Shown here in pieces: positions 27,211 to 35,411 of a stretch of 64,000 bases of DNA. This stretch comes from Nitrospirota bacterium (GTDB lineage Bacteria; Nitrospinota_A; UBA7883; JACRGQ01). The stretch's first letter is position 1. Every line of letters starts with the position of its first letter. Under the pieces are notes generated by a model. It worked only from the letters and a program-made list of their open reading frames with translations, was not told where the DNA came from and ran no database searches. Position numbers and translations under genes: made by a program. The DNA lies in contig JAJRYD010000044.1 in the NCBI GenBank assembly GCA_024275955.1, positions 62,001 to 126,000 on the forward strand. Direction: 5' to 3'.

Positions 27211-27286
27211 GGGGCCGTAGCTCAGTTGGGAGAGTGCTTGACTGGCAGTCAAGAGGTCGTCGGTTCGATCCCGACCGGCTCCACCA
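27211..27286 (+). tRNA. tRNA-Ala, anticodon GGC
   Basis: A 76-nt cloverleaf. The acceptor stem GGGGCCG pairs with CGGCTCC (one G-T), and the D arm is GCTCAGTTGGGAGAGT. The anticodon stem CTTGA/TCAAG encloses the loop CTGGCAG with anticodon GGC, which reads GCC and GCU. The T arm is TCGTCGGTTCGATCCCGACCG-like, and the 3' CCA is encoded. It stands alone, not in an rRNA operon. Confidence 0.97.
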
Positions 27287-28150: not shown

Positions 28151-29947
28151 TTAGCTGTTAGCTGGAACAAGGCTCGTGACGCTCCACCCATCGCCAGGCT
28201 CAAAAGTCTCTCCCAAAGTAAAGATTTTTAGGCTACCTTTAGGGCCGATAGCAAAAAGCGGTATCGCCTTTCCATCGTGTTCGTCCATATAAGCCTTAAA
28301 ATCGAAACTTTTCGTAATCAGCGTGCTTTTAGTCTCGGCATCGCCGTTTATCATATCTCTCAGGCTGGAATAAGTTACATCCTCACCAAACAATGTCGTC
28401 CCCCTAAACTCAAGAGCGGCTCTATGCTTTTCCGATGCCGACTTCTGCGACTCTGTCTGCAATGAAAAAATTCTGTTTCTGCCAAACTCCGCCCTGTAGC
28501 GTAGCGATGAAAGCATATTTATATCTTTTTGCGGAGAGAGAGCGAGAAGATTACCAACACCTACAAGATCAAGTTGCCTATCGGCATGTTCGGAAATAGG
28601 GTTCCCGTAGTAAGTCTGTAAACCGTCCATTCGGGCTTTACTTATGTTGTCCCAGTTGGTATCGGCAAGGATAGCCCTGTAGCCTTTGTCGGTTAGCACT
28701 TTGGCTATCGTTCTCGAGACAACTGTCGCTCCTATAACAAGAAAGCCTTTTGGTTCAGGCTCCGAAACACCCAGCAGATTTGCCAACGGCCTTGCGGTGA
28801 GGCTTTGCAATACTACGGTGCCGACTATAACCATAAATGTCAACGGCACAAGAAGATTCGCTTCTTCAAACCCAGCGTCATCCAGCCGTATGGCAAAAAG
28901 TGCCGATATAGCGGCCGCCACTATTCCGCGCGGGGCGATGAACCCAAGAAGCACTCTCTCTTGCCAGCTAAGAGAGGAACCGATGGTAGAAACGAAAACT
29001 TTCGCGGGGCGGGCAACGAACTGTATAACAAGAAAAACAATAACAGCCGGCCAGCCGAGACGCAATATTTCGCTAAATTCGATTCTCGCGGCGAGAACTA
29101 TGAAGAGAACAGAAATAAGAAGAACGCTAAGGCTTTCTTTAAAGTCGAGTATCTCCTCTACAGGAACATCTTCCATATTTGCCAGCCACATACCCATGAC
29201 GGTAACAGCCAGTAAGCCTGCTTCGTGGTGTACGGCGTTTGCCGCTACAAAAACGCCAAGAACTATCGCCAAAGTAGCTACGTTATGCAGATATTCCGGT
29301 AGCCAGTAACGCCTCAAAGCCTGTCCGAAAAAGTAGCCTGCCACGGCACCGAATAAAAGCCCTACAAAAACTATCAGGCCAAACGAGATAAAAGTCTGCC
29401 CAAAAGCGGAGCTATCTTTGCCGGAAATAATAAACCCAAATACAAGAACCGATAAGGTAGCTCCAACCGGGTCTATCACTATCCCTTCCCACCTGAGTAT
29501 ATTCGCAATGCTGGCATTCGGCCTTACGGTGCGTAGCATCGGCACGATTACGGTAGGGCCTGTGACCACGGCAATCGCGCCAAAAAGGAGCGAAAGCTCC
29601 CAAGAAAACTGTAGCACTAGGTAAGTTGCCAAGGCAGTTATCACCCATGTAACAAAAACACCGACAGAAACAAGATTACGGACAACCTGTCCTAACCCAC
29701 GAATTTCATCGAGCTTGAGGGAGAGCCCTCCCTCAAAGAGTATTACCGCGACAGCAAGGGAGACCATCGGGAAAAGCAAATCCCCAAAAATTGCTTCAGG
29801 GTCGAGCCATCCGGTAACAGGCCCCGCGATCATGCCGGCAAAAAGTAAAAACAGTATCCCAGGAAGTTTTGCCAGCCAGCCAAGCCATTGGCACGTTATG
29901 CCGATTAAGCCTATCCCTGCCAAAATAACAATCAGATGTTCTTCCAT
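28151..29947 (-). CDS. CPA-family cation/proton antiporter with RCK_N domain
   Basis: A 598-residue inner-membrane protein. Residues 1-400 or so form about 12 membrane helices of the Na+/H+ exchanger fold, with VVTGPTVIVPMLRTVRP and the ion-site region EGIVIDPVGATLSV. Residues 410-598 are a TrkA-N/RCK-like Rossmann domain (KGFLVIGATVVSRTIAKVL), likely ligand-gated. The frame is open to 30142, but the extra 65 residues lie partly inside the mobile element at 30037 and do not resemble the family. The ATG at 29947 opens MEEHLIVILAGIGLIGI. Whether it moves Na+ or K+ cannot be told. Confidence 0.85.
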   Translation of the reverse strand: MEEHLIVILAGIGLIGITCQWLGWLAKLPGILFLLFAGMIAGPVTGWLDPEAIFGDLLFPMVSLAVAVILFEGGLSLKLDEIRGLGQVVRNLVSVGVFVTWVITALATYLVLQFSWELSLLFGAIAVVTGPTVIVPMLRTVRPNASIANILRWEGIVIDPVGATLSVLVFGFIISGKDSSAFGQTFISFGLIVFVGLLFGAVAGYFFGQALRRYWLPEYLHNVATLAIVLGVFVAANAVHHEAGLLAVTVMGMWLANMEDVPVEEILDFKESLSVLLISVLFIVLAARIEFSEILRLGWPAVIVFLVIQFVARPAKVFVSTIGSSLSWQERVLLGFIAPRGIVAAAISALFAIRLDDAGFEEANLLVPLTFMVIVGTVVLQSLTARPLANLLGVSEPEPKGFLVIGATVVSRTIAKVLTDKGYRAILADTNWDNISKARMDGLQTYYGNPISEHADRQLDLVGVGNLLALSPQKDINMLSSLRYRAEFGRNRIFSLQTESQKSASEKHRAALEFRGTTLFGEDVTYSSLRDMINGDAETKSTLITKSFDFKAYMDEHDGKAIPLFAIGPKGSLKIFTLGETFEPGDGWSVTSLVPANS

Positions 29948-30036
29948 ATCAGGCTTACAGCTTCCTTCCAAAAATAAAATCTTTAAAGACCAATATATCA
30001 TCCCGCGCTGACCGTATGATACAAAAACAGAATTTA

Positions 30037-30279
30037 GGCAGTGTCTCAGCCTGAAAAATCTGCTTTTCCCAAGCAAAGCTCTCATTGCGAAGAATGTGCC
30101 GGAATCTTGCGGCAAAACTAAGTTCAAAACCACTTCAATCAATCTGAAGTTTCAGCGAGTACGCCGTAGGCGCACCGGAGCTAAATCCGGCAGATTGCCA
30201 CCACGCTACGCTGTCGCCAGCTGAGTTGCTCCTCGTGATGATATTAAAGCAGAGCTGTAATTCAAGCTAAGAGACTGCC
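30037..30279. mobile_element. MITE-like element, family C, copy 2 (intact)
   Basis: A 243-bp element with ends GGCAGTGTCTCAGCCTGAA and TTCAAGCTAAGAGACTGCC (15 of 19 bases complementary), flanked by perfect 8-bp direct repeats AGAATTTA (30029-30036, 30280-30287). It lies in the divergent gap between the antiporter and DUF1538 genes. It is the best-preserved copy of its family. Confidence 0.9.
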
Positions 30280-30381
30280 AGAATTTAAGCAACGCTTCGG
30301 CAACATGCACAACCTATAGCGAATATCCTTTGTATCCGATGAAGATAGGTTATTCTATGAAGAGTAGGAGGTTCTCTTTGT

Positions 30382-32157
30382 ATGGGTAGTGATATCAGTT
30401 ACGGTGATTTTGTAAGGGAAGCTACAATCCAGCAAAAGCAGATAAGCTACGACCTCGTTACCCCCAGACCTGAGTACGATGAAGAGGGGAAGGAGATTCC
30501 ACACAGTCCCCAAAAATTTCAGCTCCGAGGCATAGATATATACCGCCTTCTGTCGCCGTACATCTCAGTAAGGCTCAAAAGCCAGATAAAGGCTGTCGTG
30601 CCGCTTGCTCTTTACCTAATCTTTTTCCAGCTGGTAATTTTAAGACAATCGGTACTCGACCACTGGACGATTACGGCAGGCCTACTCGCCGTAATAATAG
30701 GCCTTATGATTTTTATGGAAGGGCTCAAGCTGGGCCTTATGCCGTTCGCGGAAATTATAGGGGACCACCTGCCGAAAAAATCATCGCTTAAACTTGTTCT
30801 TTTTATCGCGTTCCTGCTTGGGATAGGAGTAACTTTTGCCGAACCGGCAATAGGAGCGCTTCAAGCAGTCGGCTCAATTGTAGACATAGTCAAAGCTCCG
30901 TATCTCTACACTCTGCTAAACGACTGGACAGACCAGCTGATCCTAGTAGTCGGTATCGGTGTCGGGCTTGCGGCGATGCTAGGCACCATGCGGTTTCTGC
31001 ATGGATGGAGCCTAAAGCCGATGATATACCTGACGCTCATACCGGCGCTGGGGCTTACCACATACTGCATGACAGACGATGAACTTGCAAAAATTATCGG
31101 GCTTGCGTGGGATTGTGGCGCCGTAACGACAGGGCCGGTGACAGTTCCGCTGGTGCTGGCGCTTGGTATAGGCATAGCCTCGGCGGCAGGAAAAGGCTCT
31201 TCTTCGCTTTCAGGCTTTGGAATAGTAACATTGGCATCACTGTTCCCGATAATAGGCGTTATGATGCTCGCCATTTATATATCGTCGACTGTTTCTGTCG
31301 AAAGCATAATTCAGGCGGCCCAAGCTGTTTCCACAGTTTCCCAAACAGCAGTGCCGTGGTACGAGCAAACACCGATAGCGGAAATAATTCTCGGCACGCG
31401 GGCTATAGTGCCGCTCGTAATTTTTCTTTTCTTTGTTCTCAAGGTAATAATCCGCGAAGATCTTCACGACGCAGGTATAGTAACCTACGGCCTCACCCTC
31501 TCCGTCGTAGGGATGATACTATTCAGCATCGGGCTGAGCTACGGCCTTGCAAAGCTTGGAAGCCAGTCCGGCAGTTTTGTTCCTTCCGCTTTCGCGCAGA
31601 TTGAAAATGTACAAAACTCTCCGTTGTACAGCTACTCCATAGGCATTTCGGTAGCGTTGCTGTTTGCGTCGGTTCTAGGCTTTGGCGCCACCCTCGCCGA
31701 GCCTGCCCTTAACGCTCTGGGAGAGACCGTCGAAAGCCTTACAAACGGCGCTTTCAAGAAAAGCACCCTGATGTACGCCGTTTCGGTAGGAGTCGGAATT
31801 GGAATAACAATCGGGGTTGTCAAGATTATTTACAACATTCCACTCGCCTACATCCTCATCCCCGCGTACACGGTAGCTGTCATGCTTACCGCTATATCTT
31901 CGGAAGAGTTTGTAGACGTAGCGTGGGACAGCGCCGGCGTTACCACCGGCCCGATAACCGTTCCACTGGTACTTGCTATGGGGCTTGGGTTCGGAAACGC
32001 TATCGACACCATAGAAGGCTTTGGAATTCTTTCGATGGCATCTATCTGTCCCATACTGTCGGTGCTTATTACCGGCATAATCATAACCGCGAGAATAAAG
32101 CGCATTAAGCGCAATTCGGAAGAAAAAACAAAAATAGCCGGAGTAGTGGCGGCATGA
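30382..32157 (+). CDS. DUF1538 integral membrane protein, internally duplicated
   Basis: A 591-residue polytopic membrane protein made of two homologous halves about 280 residues apart. Each half has an AEPA motif (153-156 and 439-442) and a D-x-A-W-D...TTGPxTVPLVLA motif (TTGP at 249-252 and 521-524). Each also has an opening hydrophobic helix (VVPLALYLIFFQLVI; IVPLVIFLFFVLKVI). This inverted- or tandem-repeat architecture is typical of secondary transporters, with the repeated TTGP segments as candidate substrate loops. The family is known to me only as DUF1538, and its substrate is not established. A cytoplasmic N-terminus of 75 or so residues precedes the first helix. The gene is coupled by ATGA to a P-II-like gene. 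Confidence 0.85.
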   Translation: MGSDISYGDFVREATIQQKQISYDLVTPRPEYDEEGKEIPHSPQKFQLRGIDIYRLLSPYISVRLKSQIKAVVPLALYLIFFQLVILRQSVLDHWTITAGLLAVIIGLMIFMEGLKLGLMPFAEIIGDHLPKKSSLKLVLFIAFLLGIGVTFAEPAIGALQAVGSIVDIVKAPYLYTLLNDWTDQLILVVGIGVGLAAMLGTMRFLHGWSLKPMIYLTLIPALGLTTYCMTDDELAKIIGLAWDCGAVTTGPVTVPLVLALGIGIASAAGKGSSSLSGFGIVTLASLFPIIGVMMLAIYISSTVSVESIIQAAQAVSTVSQTAVPWYEQTPIAEIILGTRAIVPLVIFLFFVLKVIIREDLHDAGIVTYGLTLSVVGMILFSIGLSYGLAKLGSQSGSFVPSAFAQIENVQNSPLYSYSIGISVALLFASVLGFGATLAEPALNALGETVESLTNGAFKKSTLMYAVSVGVGIGITIGVVKIIYNIPLAYILIPAYTVAVMLTAISSEEFVDVAWDSAGVTTGPITVPLVLAMGLGFGNAIDTIEGFGILSMASICPILSVLITGIIITARIKRIKRNSEEKTKIAGVVAA

Positions 32158-32522
32158 GCAAAAGAAAAATTACAGTATTAAAAAACGTAGCGCTGATAAC
32201 ATGCATCGTACAGCGCGGGCTGGGAGATGAAATTTTTAAGGCGGCAAGAGAAGCTGGAGCGCAAGGAGCGACTATAAATTTTGCCAGAGGCACCGGCGTA
32301 AGAGAAAGGCTCGGCATTCTCGGCGTGGCGGTAGAGGTTGAAAAAGAGGTTATCAGCATCGTAGTCTCCACGGAGCAGGTAGAGCGGGTCTTTGAAAAAA
32401 TGTTTATCGCTGGAAACCTAGACACGCCCGGAATGGGCCTAATGTACATCACACCGCTCGAGAAAGCGGCTACCTATATACCGCCGGAAATTCTCGAAAA
32501 ACTGGAGGGTGCCGATGATTAA
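32154..32522 (+). CDS. P-II-like regulatory protein 1
   Basis: A 122-residue ferredoxin-like protein of the GlnB superfamily, trimeric in its relatives. The beta-alpha-beta pattern is clear (ALITCIVQRGLGDEIFKAAR; ATINFARGTG). The T loop ARGTGVRERLGILG is short and lacks the tyrosine modified by GlnD in classical P-II, and the ATP-binding B loop is replaced by LDTPGMGLMYI. Its start overlaps the DUF1538 stop, so it is probably a regulator of that membrane protein, as GlnK is of AmtB. This role is an inference. Confidence 0.8.
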   Translation: MSKRKITVLKNVALITCIVQRGLGDEIFKAAREAGAQGATINFARGTGVRERLGILGVAVEVEKEVISIVVSTEQVERVFEKMFIAGNLDTPGMGLMYITPLEKAATYIPPEILEKLEGADD

Positions 32523-32558
32523 GATATCTACGCGGTACAAGAAAGTAATCGGCAAGGG

Positions 32559-32894
32559 ATGAAAAAACTATCCAACACAAAACTGATCACCTGCCTCTTG
32601 CCGAAAGATAAAGCGATTAAAATAACAAGACGGCTAAAAGAAGAAAAGAATATTCTAACGGAAAACATAAGCCACGGAAGAGGTGTCGGAGTTTCTGATT
32701 CATCACTACTCGGCGCGTGGATAGAAGTTGACATCCTTACTGTCGTAATCGAAGAATCTATGGCAGATGAGATATTCGAATTTATATTCTTCGAGTCTGA
32801 AGCGAACCAATCGCATGGCGGCTTTATGTTCCAGTCGAACCTAAGCAGTTCTACGCGGTTCAGGTTGCCCGATATTCCTGTGGAAGGTGAATAG
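32559..32894 (+). CDS. P-II-like regulatory protein 2
   Basis: A second, diverged P-II-like protein of 111 residues (KLITCLLPKDKAIKITRRLK; ISHGRGVGVSDSSLLG; DILTVVIEESMADEIFEFIF). The HGRGVGVS loop is the counterpart of the T loop in protein 1, again without a tyrosine. It follows protein 1 by 36 bp. The pair could form mixed trimers or sense two different ligands. Confidence 0.65.
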   Translation: MKKLSNTKLITCLLPKDKAIKITRRLKEEKNILTENISHGRGVGVSDSSLLGAWIEVDILTVVIEESMADEIFEFIFFESEANQSHGGFMFQSNLSSSTRFRLPDIPVEGE

Positions 32895-32939
32895 GCTTTG
32901 CCATACAGTTAAGAAACTAGAAAAGTATGAGGTGATACC

Positions 32940-35411
32940 ATGCACCACTCTTCCGTAGTGCTGGAAACGGTTATAGGAGTTGTCACTCTGCTCCTTGTCG
33001 CAACCGGCATACGGGCATTTACCAAAGCGACAAAACTTCCTTTCAGCATAGTCCTCGTTTTAACCGGAATGGGGTTTTCATATATCGCCCAAAGCTACCC
33101 GGGAGCTTCAACGCTCCTTCCGAGTCTTGAAATCTCGCCGGATATAATTCTGTACATATTTCTTCCAACGCTTGTGTTCGAATCGGCCTTTTCCATGGAT
33201 ACGCAGATGCTTAGAGAAAACCTCCGGCAGGTTCTGGCGCTTGCGGTGCCGGGCCTGCTTTTATCGACAGGACTAACCGGCTATATAATCCATCTCGCTA
33301 CAGGCATTCCGCTTGCGGAATCATTTCTGCTTGGATCTATACTAAGCGCGACCGACCCTGTAGCGGTCATAGCTCTGTTCAAACAGCTTGGGACACCTTT
33401 AAGGCTGACCGTACTGGTGGAGGGAGAAAGCCTCTTCAACGATGCAACAGCGATAGTGGTTTCGCGAATACTGATTGCCGTAGTGGCGGCTGGCAACATC
33501 ACCTTTGGAACACTCCTGCATGGCACTGCCAGCTTTTTCGTCGTGTTCATCGGCGGGGTTGTCGTCGGCTGGCTGTTGGGGTTGCTTACAGGCTACATCC
33601 TCGGCATGGTTGAATCCGACCCGTTTATAGAAATCAGCCTTACGACAGTTCTGGCCTACCTCTCGTTCGTCATAGCGGAGGAGCTACTTCATGTAAGCGG
33701 AGTAATGGCAACCGTAGCCGCCGGCCTTACTATAGGCGGCTGGGGCAGAATGAAAATCTCTCACTCGGTTAGAAGCTATCTGGAACATTTCTGGGAATAT
33801 TTGGTTTTTGTAGCCAACGCGCTTATATTTCTGATGGTAGGTCTCCATGTAAAAATTTCTGCCATTACAGAGTCGTTTGGAATGATTTTATGGATTATTC
33901 TGGCGATGTCGATATCCCGCGCGGTAATCATTTTCGGCATTGTTCCGATGGTAGGAAAAAGAGAGAAATCCGAACCTGTAAACCTACGCTATCAAACAGT
34001 AATGTTCTGGGGCGGACTAAGAGGAGCGATAGCGCTGGCAATAGTATTAAGCCTGCCCGACTTTGAATATTACGAAATTTTCGTCACCCTTGTAACCGGA
34101 GCGGTACTCTTTACGCTAATCGCGCAAGGACTTACAATGAATATGCTTGTGCGGTTTTTGAAGCTTAACATAGCGCCGCTTTCAGACCGTTTCGCCTTTT
34201 TGGAGGGAAGCCTCGCGTCCAAGCTTACTGCCCAAGAAAAAATACCGGAACTTATGAAAGGCGGACAGTTTTCCGGCTCCATCGCCAACAGACTGCAAGA
34301 GGAAAACTCCAGAGAGATAGAGAAAATAAGAAAAAAAATAGACTCTCTCCAGCAGTCGGAACTGACCCCGGAACATGAGAAGCGATTGATTCTGCTTTTT
34401 GGTTTTGCCGAAGAAAAGTCTATGTTTATTGAGATGTTTAATAAGGGACATATATCCGAACGAGCATTCAGAGAGTTGGTACAAGTTTTGTCACTGCATA
34501 TGGATGCGCTACGCCACAGTAGGGAGGTGGAGCATGTAGAGGCATATAACCTTCCCCAACGGCGCTTGGAGCGTGCGGCAATCTATCTTGCCGAAAAAAC
34601 CCCCGGACTATCGACCGTTGCCGAAAGTATACGCAGATTAAGAATTGCGAAAGACTACGAAATGGCTTGGGGACGCTACAAGGGAAGCGGCTGGGTGCTA
34701 CAGCAGATGGGTAGCCTGACAAAGCTTAAATCGTTGTCCGAAGAGTCGATAAAAGATCTGTTCAGGCTATACAAACGGTGGCAGAGAATGTCGGGGGAGA
34801 TATTGGACCAAACTGCCGAGCAATTCCCCGAATTCGTAAACACCGTTCAGGAACGGATAGGAAAGCGGCTACTGCTCCAAGCCGAGTCCGAAGCGATTAA
34901 AAGAGAGGCCGAACATGGCTTCCTCACGCAAGGGGTAGCCGAGAAAATGCAGGAAGAGGTGACGGGAAAACTTCATGCCTTAAAGAAAATCGAAACCGGC
35001 AAACTAAAATTTAAGCCTTACGAACTTTTACGGGAGGTTCCATTTTTTAGTGAAATTCCAGAAAAAGAATACGAGCAGATTATCGAACATACCATCACAC
35101 GCTCCTTCTCTGGAAAGGATTATATAATAAGACAGGGCGAAGAAGGTAGCTCCCTTTTTCTTATAGCCCGCGGAGTGGTGAGAGTTTCACGGAGTGATGA
35201 AGGCAAAACCAGCGACCTTGCGACACTTATGGCAGGCGATTTTTTTGGCGAGATGGCGCTACTCCACTCCGAGCCGCGTAGTGCCACGGTAAGAGCCGCC
35301 ACCCCATGCCTGCTTTACGAGCTGAAACAAGAAGACCTTTTTACCGCGATGAAAACATCTCCATCCATTAGAAGCGCGCTGGAAAAAGCGGACAAAGAAC
35401 GAAAATCCTAA
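32940..35411 (+). CDS. CPA1 Na+/H+ antiporter with C-terminal cNMP-binding domain
   Basis: An 823-residue NhaP/SOS1-type antiporter. Residues 1-420 or so carry about 12 helices with the ion-binding motif SATDPVAVIALFKQLG and GESLFNDATAIVVSR. A long cytoplasmic helical region (420-690) follows. The C-terminus is a cyclic-nucleotide-binding beta-roll (YIIRQGEEGSSLFLIARGVV; GDFFGEMALLHSEPRSATVR). GAGGTGAT precedes the ATG. It is 45 bp behind P-II-like protein 2 in the same direction and likely co-transcribed with it. The architecture resembles plant SOS1 and predicts gating by a nucleotide. Confidence 0.88.
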   Translation: MHHSSVVLETVIGVVTLLLVATGIRAFTKATKLPFSIVLVLTGMGFSYIAQSYPGASTLLPSLEISPDIILYIFLPTLVFESAFSMDTQMLRENLRQVLALAVPGLLLSTGLTGYIIHLATGIPLAESFLLGSILSATDPVAVIALFKQLGTPLRLTVLVEGESLFNDATAIVVSRILIAVVAAGNITFGTLLHGTASFFVVFIGGVVVGWLLGLLTGYILGMVESDPFIEISLTTVLAYLSFVIAEELLHVSGVMATVAAGLTIGGWGRMKISHSVRSYLEHFWEYLVFVANALIFLMVGLHVKISAITESFGMILWIILAMSISRAVIIFGIVPMVGKREKSEPVNLRYQTVMFWGGLRGAIALAIVLSLPDFEYYEIFVTLVTGAVLFTLIAQGLTMNMLVRFLKLNIAPLSDRFAFLEGSLASKLTAQEKIPELMKGGQFSGSIANRLQEENSREIEKIRKKIDSLQQSELTPEHEKRLILLFGFAEEKSMFIEMFNKGHISERAFRELVQVLSLHMDALRHSREVEHVEAYNLPQRRLERAAIYLAEKTPGLSTVAESIRRLRIAKDYEMAWGRYKGSGWVLQQMGSLTKLKSLSEESIKDLFRLYKRWQRMSGEILDQTAEQFPEFVNTVQERIGKRLLLQAESEAIKREAEHGFLTQGVAEKMQEEVTGKLHALKKIETGKLKFKPYELLREVPFFSEIPEKEYEQIIEHTITRSFSGKDYIIRQGEEGSSLFLIARGVVRVSRSDEGKTSDLATLMAGDFFGEMALLHSEPRSATVRAATPCLLYELKQEDLFTAMKTSPSIRSALEKADKERKS

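Follow-up and report, generated by a model that had tools for sequence, protein, structure and literature searches.

A fused UmpA-UmpB-like DUF1538 protein encoded with two P-II-like proteins in a Nitrospirota bacterium: a putative P-II-regulated cation/proton antiporter

P-II proteins belong to the most widely distributed signalling proteins; why should their genes stand directly behind a gene for a membrane protein of the little-studied DUF1538 family? The question is raised by a stretch of 64,000 nucleotides from an uncultured Nitrospirota bacterium (contig JAJRYD010000044.1, positions 62,001 to 126,000; hereafter the window), part of a 2.45-Mb draft genome, in which four co-directional genes on the forward strand encode a DUF1538 protein of 591 amino acids (30382..32157), two P-II-like proteins designated P2A (32154..32522) and P2B (32559..32894), and a CPA1-type Na+/H+ antiporter with a C-terminal cyclic-nucleotide-binding domain (32940..35411). 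A first-pass annotation of this DNA had proposed an ion or bicarbonate uptake system, in which P-II-like trimers control the DUF1538 protein while the antiporter serves the Na+ gradient. The evidence described herein points instead to the core at 30382-32894 being a P-II-regulated monovalent cation/proton antiporter with dedicated P-II-type regulators, a reading to which we assign a probability of roughly two in three, with the fourth gene as an optional partner.

The DUF1538 protein was assigned by PF07556 over two stretches with 360 bits, above the Pfam gathering score of 22.6 bits, and bears an N-terminal extension of approximately 60 amino acids before the two DUF1538 repeats. Its first half matched the NCBIfam model of UmpA and its second half that of UmpB (NF041627 and NF041628), with scores of 234 and 161 bits against equivalog cut-offs of 490 and 500 bits. 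Since its halves are UmpA-like and UmpB-like in this order and score far below the cut-offs, the protein, which was also placed in a 25-sequence alignment, was regarded as a fused, diverged UmpAB homologue and not as a certified equivalog. Its nearest relatives were Nitrospinota entries (70-73% identity), and the same kind of gene occurs in other genomes of the host's family and class. DUF1538 is not a family of unknown function, because umpA and umpB of Halomonas zhaodongensis, when co-expressed, rescued antiporter-deficient Escherichia coli and gave Na+(Li+,K+)/H+ antiport, the two products being reported to form a heterodimer (2017, PMC5484666). UmpAB and the window protein thus share the family and the two homologous membrane halves, whereas UmpAB is encoded by two genes, with no P-II partner mentioned in that paper, and the window protein is fused, carries the extension and has two P-II-type neighbours. 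In addition, DUF1538 was among the predictors of bacterial growth pH in a 2026 machine-learning study (PMC13255231).

The internal duplication noticed in the first-pass annotation was borne out by the occurrence of the AEPA and TTGPxTVP motifs in each half of the protein. Among 135 aligned DUF1538 domains, the Glu of AEPA was identical in 134 of the 134 having a residue at this position, and so was the Asp of WDxGxVTTGPxTVP in 133 of 133. In the window protein, these residues correspond to E154 (30841..30843) and D244 (31111..31113) in the first repeat, and to their equivalents E440 (31699-31701) and D516 (31927-31929) in the second, and the alignment suggests that they are candidate ion sites. 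An AlphaFold2 model of only moderate quality (predicted local distance difference test (pLDDT) 73, predicted template modelling score 0.73) gave no PDB match at E<=0.001, which does not make the fold new.

DUF1538 loci were collected in two sets, one by applying the Pfam model to 385 related and domain-wide sampled genomes, of which 37 matched, and the other by searching named genome contigs for sequences similar to the window protein; linkage was counted only at loci with readable downstream DNA (n = 65). In this collection, in which many loci derive from metagenome assemblies and those inside one clade are not independent, a co-directional P-II gene started at most 93 nucleotides past the DUF1538 stop codon in 63 of the 65 loci (39/41 for the window and the Pfam-model loci, and 24/24 for the similarity loci). 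Across its 2.45 Mb, the host genome contains P2B and six matches to PF00543, so that chance adjacency was estimated at well under 1% per locus. Furthermore, the pair was carried by all five plasmids with annotated records, which come from Alphaproteobacteria and Clostridia, with the P-II gene labelled as 'P-II family nitrogen regulator': the arrangement was umpA-umpB-P-II in Chelativorans and Methylocystis, and a fused DUF1538 gene plus a gene for a P-II protein of about 225 amino acids in Vescimonas, Paraclostridium and Peptoclostridium. The plasmid searches yielded no record from Halomonas. The pairing also covers deep branches of the DUF1538 tree. These observations strongly support that DUF1538 and P-II belong together, and the conservation of their neighbourhood, set beforehand as the test of the first-pass proposal, held in genomes and plasmids alike. 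The recurrence of the pairing in very different bacteria suggests that ion exchangers, and not nutrient importers alone, are switched by P-II sensors.

P2A was recognised by PF00543 (36 bits against a gathering score of 25), and its AlphaFold2 model (pLDDT 80) gave 345 PDB matches at E<=0.001 (best E 2.7e-8), the top ones among those listed being canonical GlnK/PII chains; P2A is hence of the PII fold. P2B fell below the same 25-bit gathering score and is without a Pfam match, the other three genes of the unit and the CPA gene upstream having been assigned by Pfam, and a PDB sequence search with P2B gave no match. The family profile of P2B aligned with that of P2A over 110 columns (hhalign probability 99.4, E 2.3e-21), which identified it as a second P-II-like protein, and one that diverges fast, the identity to the window copy being 21-50%. 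In an alignment of 75 DUF1538-linked P-II-like proteins with GlnB/GlnK of the host genome and E. coli GlnB, the column of the T-loop tyrosine Y51 was a gap in 75/75, and the T-loop was shorter by approximately five residues in all of them, so that the earlier description of a P-II fold devoid of this tyrosine proved accurate. P2A retains the equivalents of T29, G37, G87 and G89 and has V, L, T and I at the positions of R38, K90, R101 and R103, thereby departing from canonical GlnB/GlnK in Y51 and in these ATP residues; separate canonical GlnB/GlnK genes are present in the host genome. At the T-loop position, P2A carries instead a conserved GxGxRERLGxLG, in which G-x-G-x-R-E-R-x-G-x-x-G was invariant. 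From these replacements, we infer that the nucleotide site of P2A is probably altered and that the protein has probably gained a new loop for docking.

The P-II part varied between a single gene, two separate genes, and a tandem protein of two or three units. The short two-gene UmpAB forms are followed by one P-II gene, and two genes, P2A and P2B, are found in the clade of the window protein; two P-II genes also occur in three loci of another fused DUF1538 clade, and a tandem double in L089 and L091. In a sister clade, DUF1538 proteins of 640-730 amino acids are directly followed by a protein of 365-395 amino acids with tandem P-II units (L087 4726-5823, and also L088, L090, L092, L096, L098, L101 and L103); the profile found three units in five of these eight proteins and two in the other three, and inspection by eye suggested three in all eight. 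P-II proteins being trimeric, the triple form looks like a single-chain trimer, a possible assembly in which the domain counts are computed and the trimer is deduced from them.

The surroundings of these loci were rich in ion transport genes. In loci of the Burkholderiales type, TrkA and TrkH are encoded divergently from the unit, and downstream of it come the genes for a 243-amino-acid protein, Ion_trans channels, a ClC and a CitMHS-type transporter; L090 and L092 have an RCK-type potassium channel near the unit. The 243-amino-acid protein, conserved and without a Pfam match, directly follows the P-II pair at L069 10605-11336 and in eight other Burkholderiales-type loci, and is likely a further component there. 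The host genome has a second DUF1538 locus (L043 6514-8704, contig C18) in which umpA and umpB are separate genes, accompanied by one P-II-like gene and a gene for a CBS-pair protein, and such a CBS-pair partner of short umpAB-P-II units was also seen in L045, L049, L052, L099 and L104.

On this basis, the following mechanism may be proposed for the window unit. The DUF1538 protein, corresponding to the UmpA/UmpB heterodimer fused into one chain, would exchange Na+/K+(Li+) for H+, probably via the invariant AEPA Glu and the invariant WDxGxVTTGPxTVP Asp in each half. P2A, and P2B with it, would assemble as P-II trimers or mixed trimers at the cytoplasmic face, and a small ligand, most likely an adenine nucleotide or a nucleotide second messenger, would bind in the inter-subunit cleft in a mode other than the classical ATP plus 2-oxoglutarate. 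The short conserved GxGxRERLG T-loop would then dock on the antiporter, either inhibiting or releasing it. The adjacent exchangers with a cyclic-nucleotide-binding or a TrkA_N domain would belong to the same K+/Na+/pH homeostasis island, each under separate ligand control.

Several points weigh against a P-II-regulated antiporter. The sub-cut-off UmpA and UmpB scores imply that the transport specificity of the window protein may differ, and two loci were without a co-directional P-II gene: none was found in L044, and the one near L045 lies in the convergent orientation. In addition, the known P-II-controlled transporters function as trimers (PMC10710835), whereas a heterodimer was reported for UmpAB; the tandem P-II forms make this objection testable. 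The P-II targets named in the 2023 review, namely AmtB, Amt1, NrtABCD, UrtABCDE and SbtA, are importers or channels, with no antiporter among them (PMC10710835). A literature search, which covered mostly titles and abstract openings and few subscription journals, found no P-II-controlled antiporter and no joint account of PII-like proteins and DUF1538.

That every P-II case in the review acts on an importer or a channel, and that the antiporter with the cyclic-nucleotide-binding domain is adjacent in eight loci, would suit the model of the first-pass annotation, i.e., a gated channel or uptake system for cations or other solutes, perhaps bicarbonate, which is plugged by P-II as in AmtB/GlnK or SbtA/SbtB and served by the CPA1 exchanger recycling Na+. 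This model nevertheless appears improbable, given that the only characterised DUF1538 proteins found, UmpAB, are themselves cation/H+ antiporters (PMC5484666) to which the window protein is related through its NF041627/8 matches, and that the DUF1538 model, of moderate quality as it is, did not match the fold of SbtA or AmtB significantly. Bicarbonate uptake in particular was rejected as the leading explanation, as the recurrent annotated neighbours of the DUF1538 loci are K+/Na+/Cl- transporters (Trk, K+ channel, ClC and CitMHS-type), with none related to carbon fixation or bicarbonate transport. Somewhat less improbable, though still unlikely, is a purely structural role of the P-II-like proteins as accessory subunits of the antiporter, such as a cytoplasmic cap for folding or stability, instead of ligand-responsive regulation. 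The linkage indeed looks obligate, the classical ATP residues and the T-loop tyrosine are lost and P2B diverges fast, all of which speaks for such subunits. On the other hand, the DNA fragment from which UmpAB showed activity in E. coli has no reported P-II open reading frame (PMC5484666), which suggests that transport is modulated by P-II but does not depend on it, as with a regulator and not an obligate subunit; the invariant glycines and the R-E-R loop of P2A also resemble a ligand or docking site more than a mere scaffold, and the number of P-II domains ranges from one to three. P-II proteins have many soluble targets, and their interaction with DUF1538 is a predicted one, so that P2A and P2B might act elsewhere, e.g., on transcription or nitrogen enzymes, and merely be co-expressed with the antiporter; the immediate adjacency, the start/stop overlap, the conservation in very distant bacteria and the separate GlnB/GlnK genes of the host make this highly unlikely.

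Like GlnK with AmtB, P2A is a P-II-fold protein in an operon with a membrane transporter thought to be under its control, but the target of GlnK is an ammonium channel, and Y51 and the ATP residues, absent from P2A, are retained in GlnK. The best mechanistic analogue is SbtB-SbtA, where a non-canonical PII-like protein docks on a membrane transporter in an adenine-nucleotide-dependent manner; SbtA is, however, a bicarbonate transporter whereas the partner of P2A is DUF1538, and SbtB was absent among the 50 PDB matches listed, of 345, for the P2A model. PII-NG proteins, which are P-II paralogues known beside the proton-driven CusA/CzcA exporters, provide a third parallel, and the host genome has one such copy beside a CusA/CzcA-like RND exporter gene (L121 482-4007, contig C45), which fits that context. 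This copy adjoins the RND metal-efflux gene and keeps R38, K90 and R101, residues lost in P2A.

A second P-II/antiporter association was observed in the host genome, whose PF00999 exchangers, two flanking the window unit and one on contig C29, all adjoin P-II-like genes, as do both DUF1538 loci. The locus on C29 is a compact operon of PtsN-like EIIA, P-II and two CPA2 genes (L120 5906-9258), which recurs across Nitrospinota in 13 of 13 close matches (L124-L136) and is partial or rearranged in several more distant genomes. We tentatively suggest, at somewhat less than even odds, that one branch of the P-II superfamily has been overlooked as a general means of switching monovalent cation/proton antiporters across bacteria, tying K+/Na+/pH homeostasis to a nucleotide signal both through DUF1538/UmpAB with one to three P-II domains, the triple form being a single-chain pseudo-trimer that breaks the P-II symmetry, and through the separate PtsN - P-II - CPA2 operons. 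A near-universal P-II partner of an antiporter family would, if true, add ion and pH homeostasis to the roles of P-II and account for the 'nitrogen regulator' genes beside UmpAB homologues with no evident nitrogen link.

The fourth gene proved less constant than the core. Its product matched PF00999 (221 bits) and TIGR00831 (a_cpa1; 280.3 bits, barely above the cut-off of 279.6), and the predicted C-terminal nucleotide-binding domain was confirmed by PF00027 with 82 bits. An exchanger of this kind adjoins a long DUF1538 unit in eight loci in three arrangements: the window, six Nitrospinota loci with the exchanger upstream in either orientation, and the gammaproteobacterial locus L061 with the gene order of the window. 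The window exchanger is 43% identical to the gammaproteobacterial one and 31% to a Nitrospinota upstream one, which indicates that the association has more than one origin or was spread by transfer. Hence, of the four-gene unit initially described, the DUF1538 and P-II part stood far above chance, and the exchanger was rejected as a core component, recurring only in a subset.

The four genes look like one transcription unit. The spacing noted in the first-pass annotation was exact, i.e., a 4-bp ATGA start/stop overlap between DUF1538 and P2A (32154..32157), followed by gaps of 36 bp (P2A-P2B) and 45 bp (P2B-CPA1). A scan for independent promoters and internal terminators gave promoter-like and terminator-like matches at no higher frequency than shuffled sequence did, and the P2A/P2B/CPA1 gaps were free of terminator-like sites, which is compatible with one unit and no proof of it. 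The 30143-30381 intergenic stretch was without an Rfam match, and a riboswitch upstream of the unit was discarded, the Rfam scan of the window giving only a tRNA at 27211. On its other side lies, as described before, a divergent CPA antiporter gene (28151..30142, reverse strand), whose product combines PF00999 (137 bits) with an RCK-type TrkA_N domain (PF02254, 26.5 bits). Its exchanger domain begins at residue 82, and the true start is probably about 60 codons inside the open reading frame; such a later start would lengthen the approximately 240 bp that separate this gene from the DUF1538 gene.

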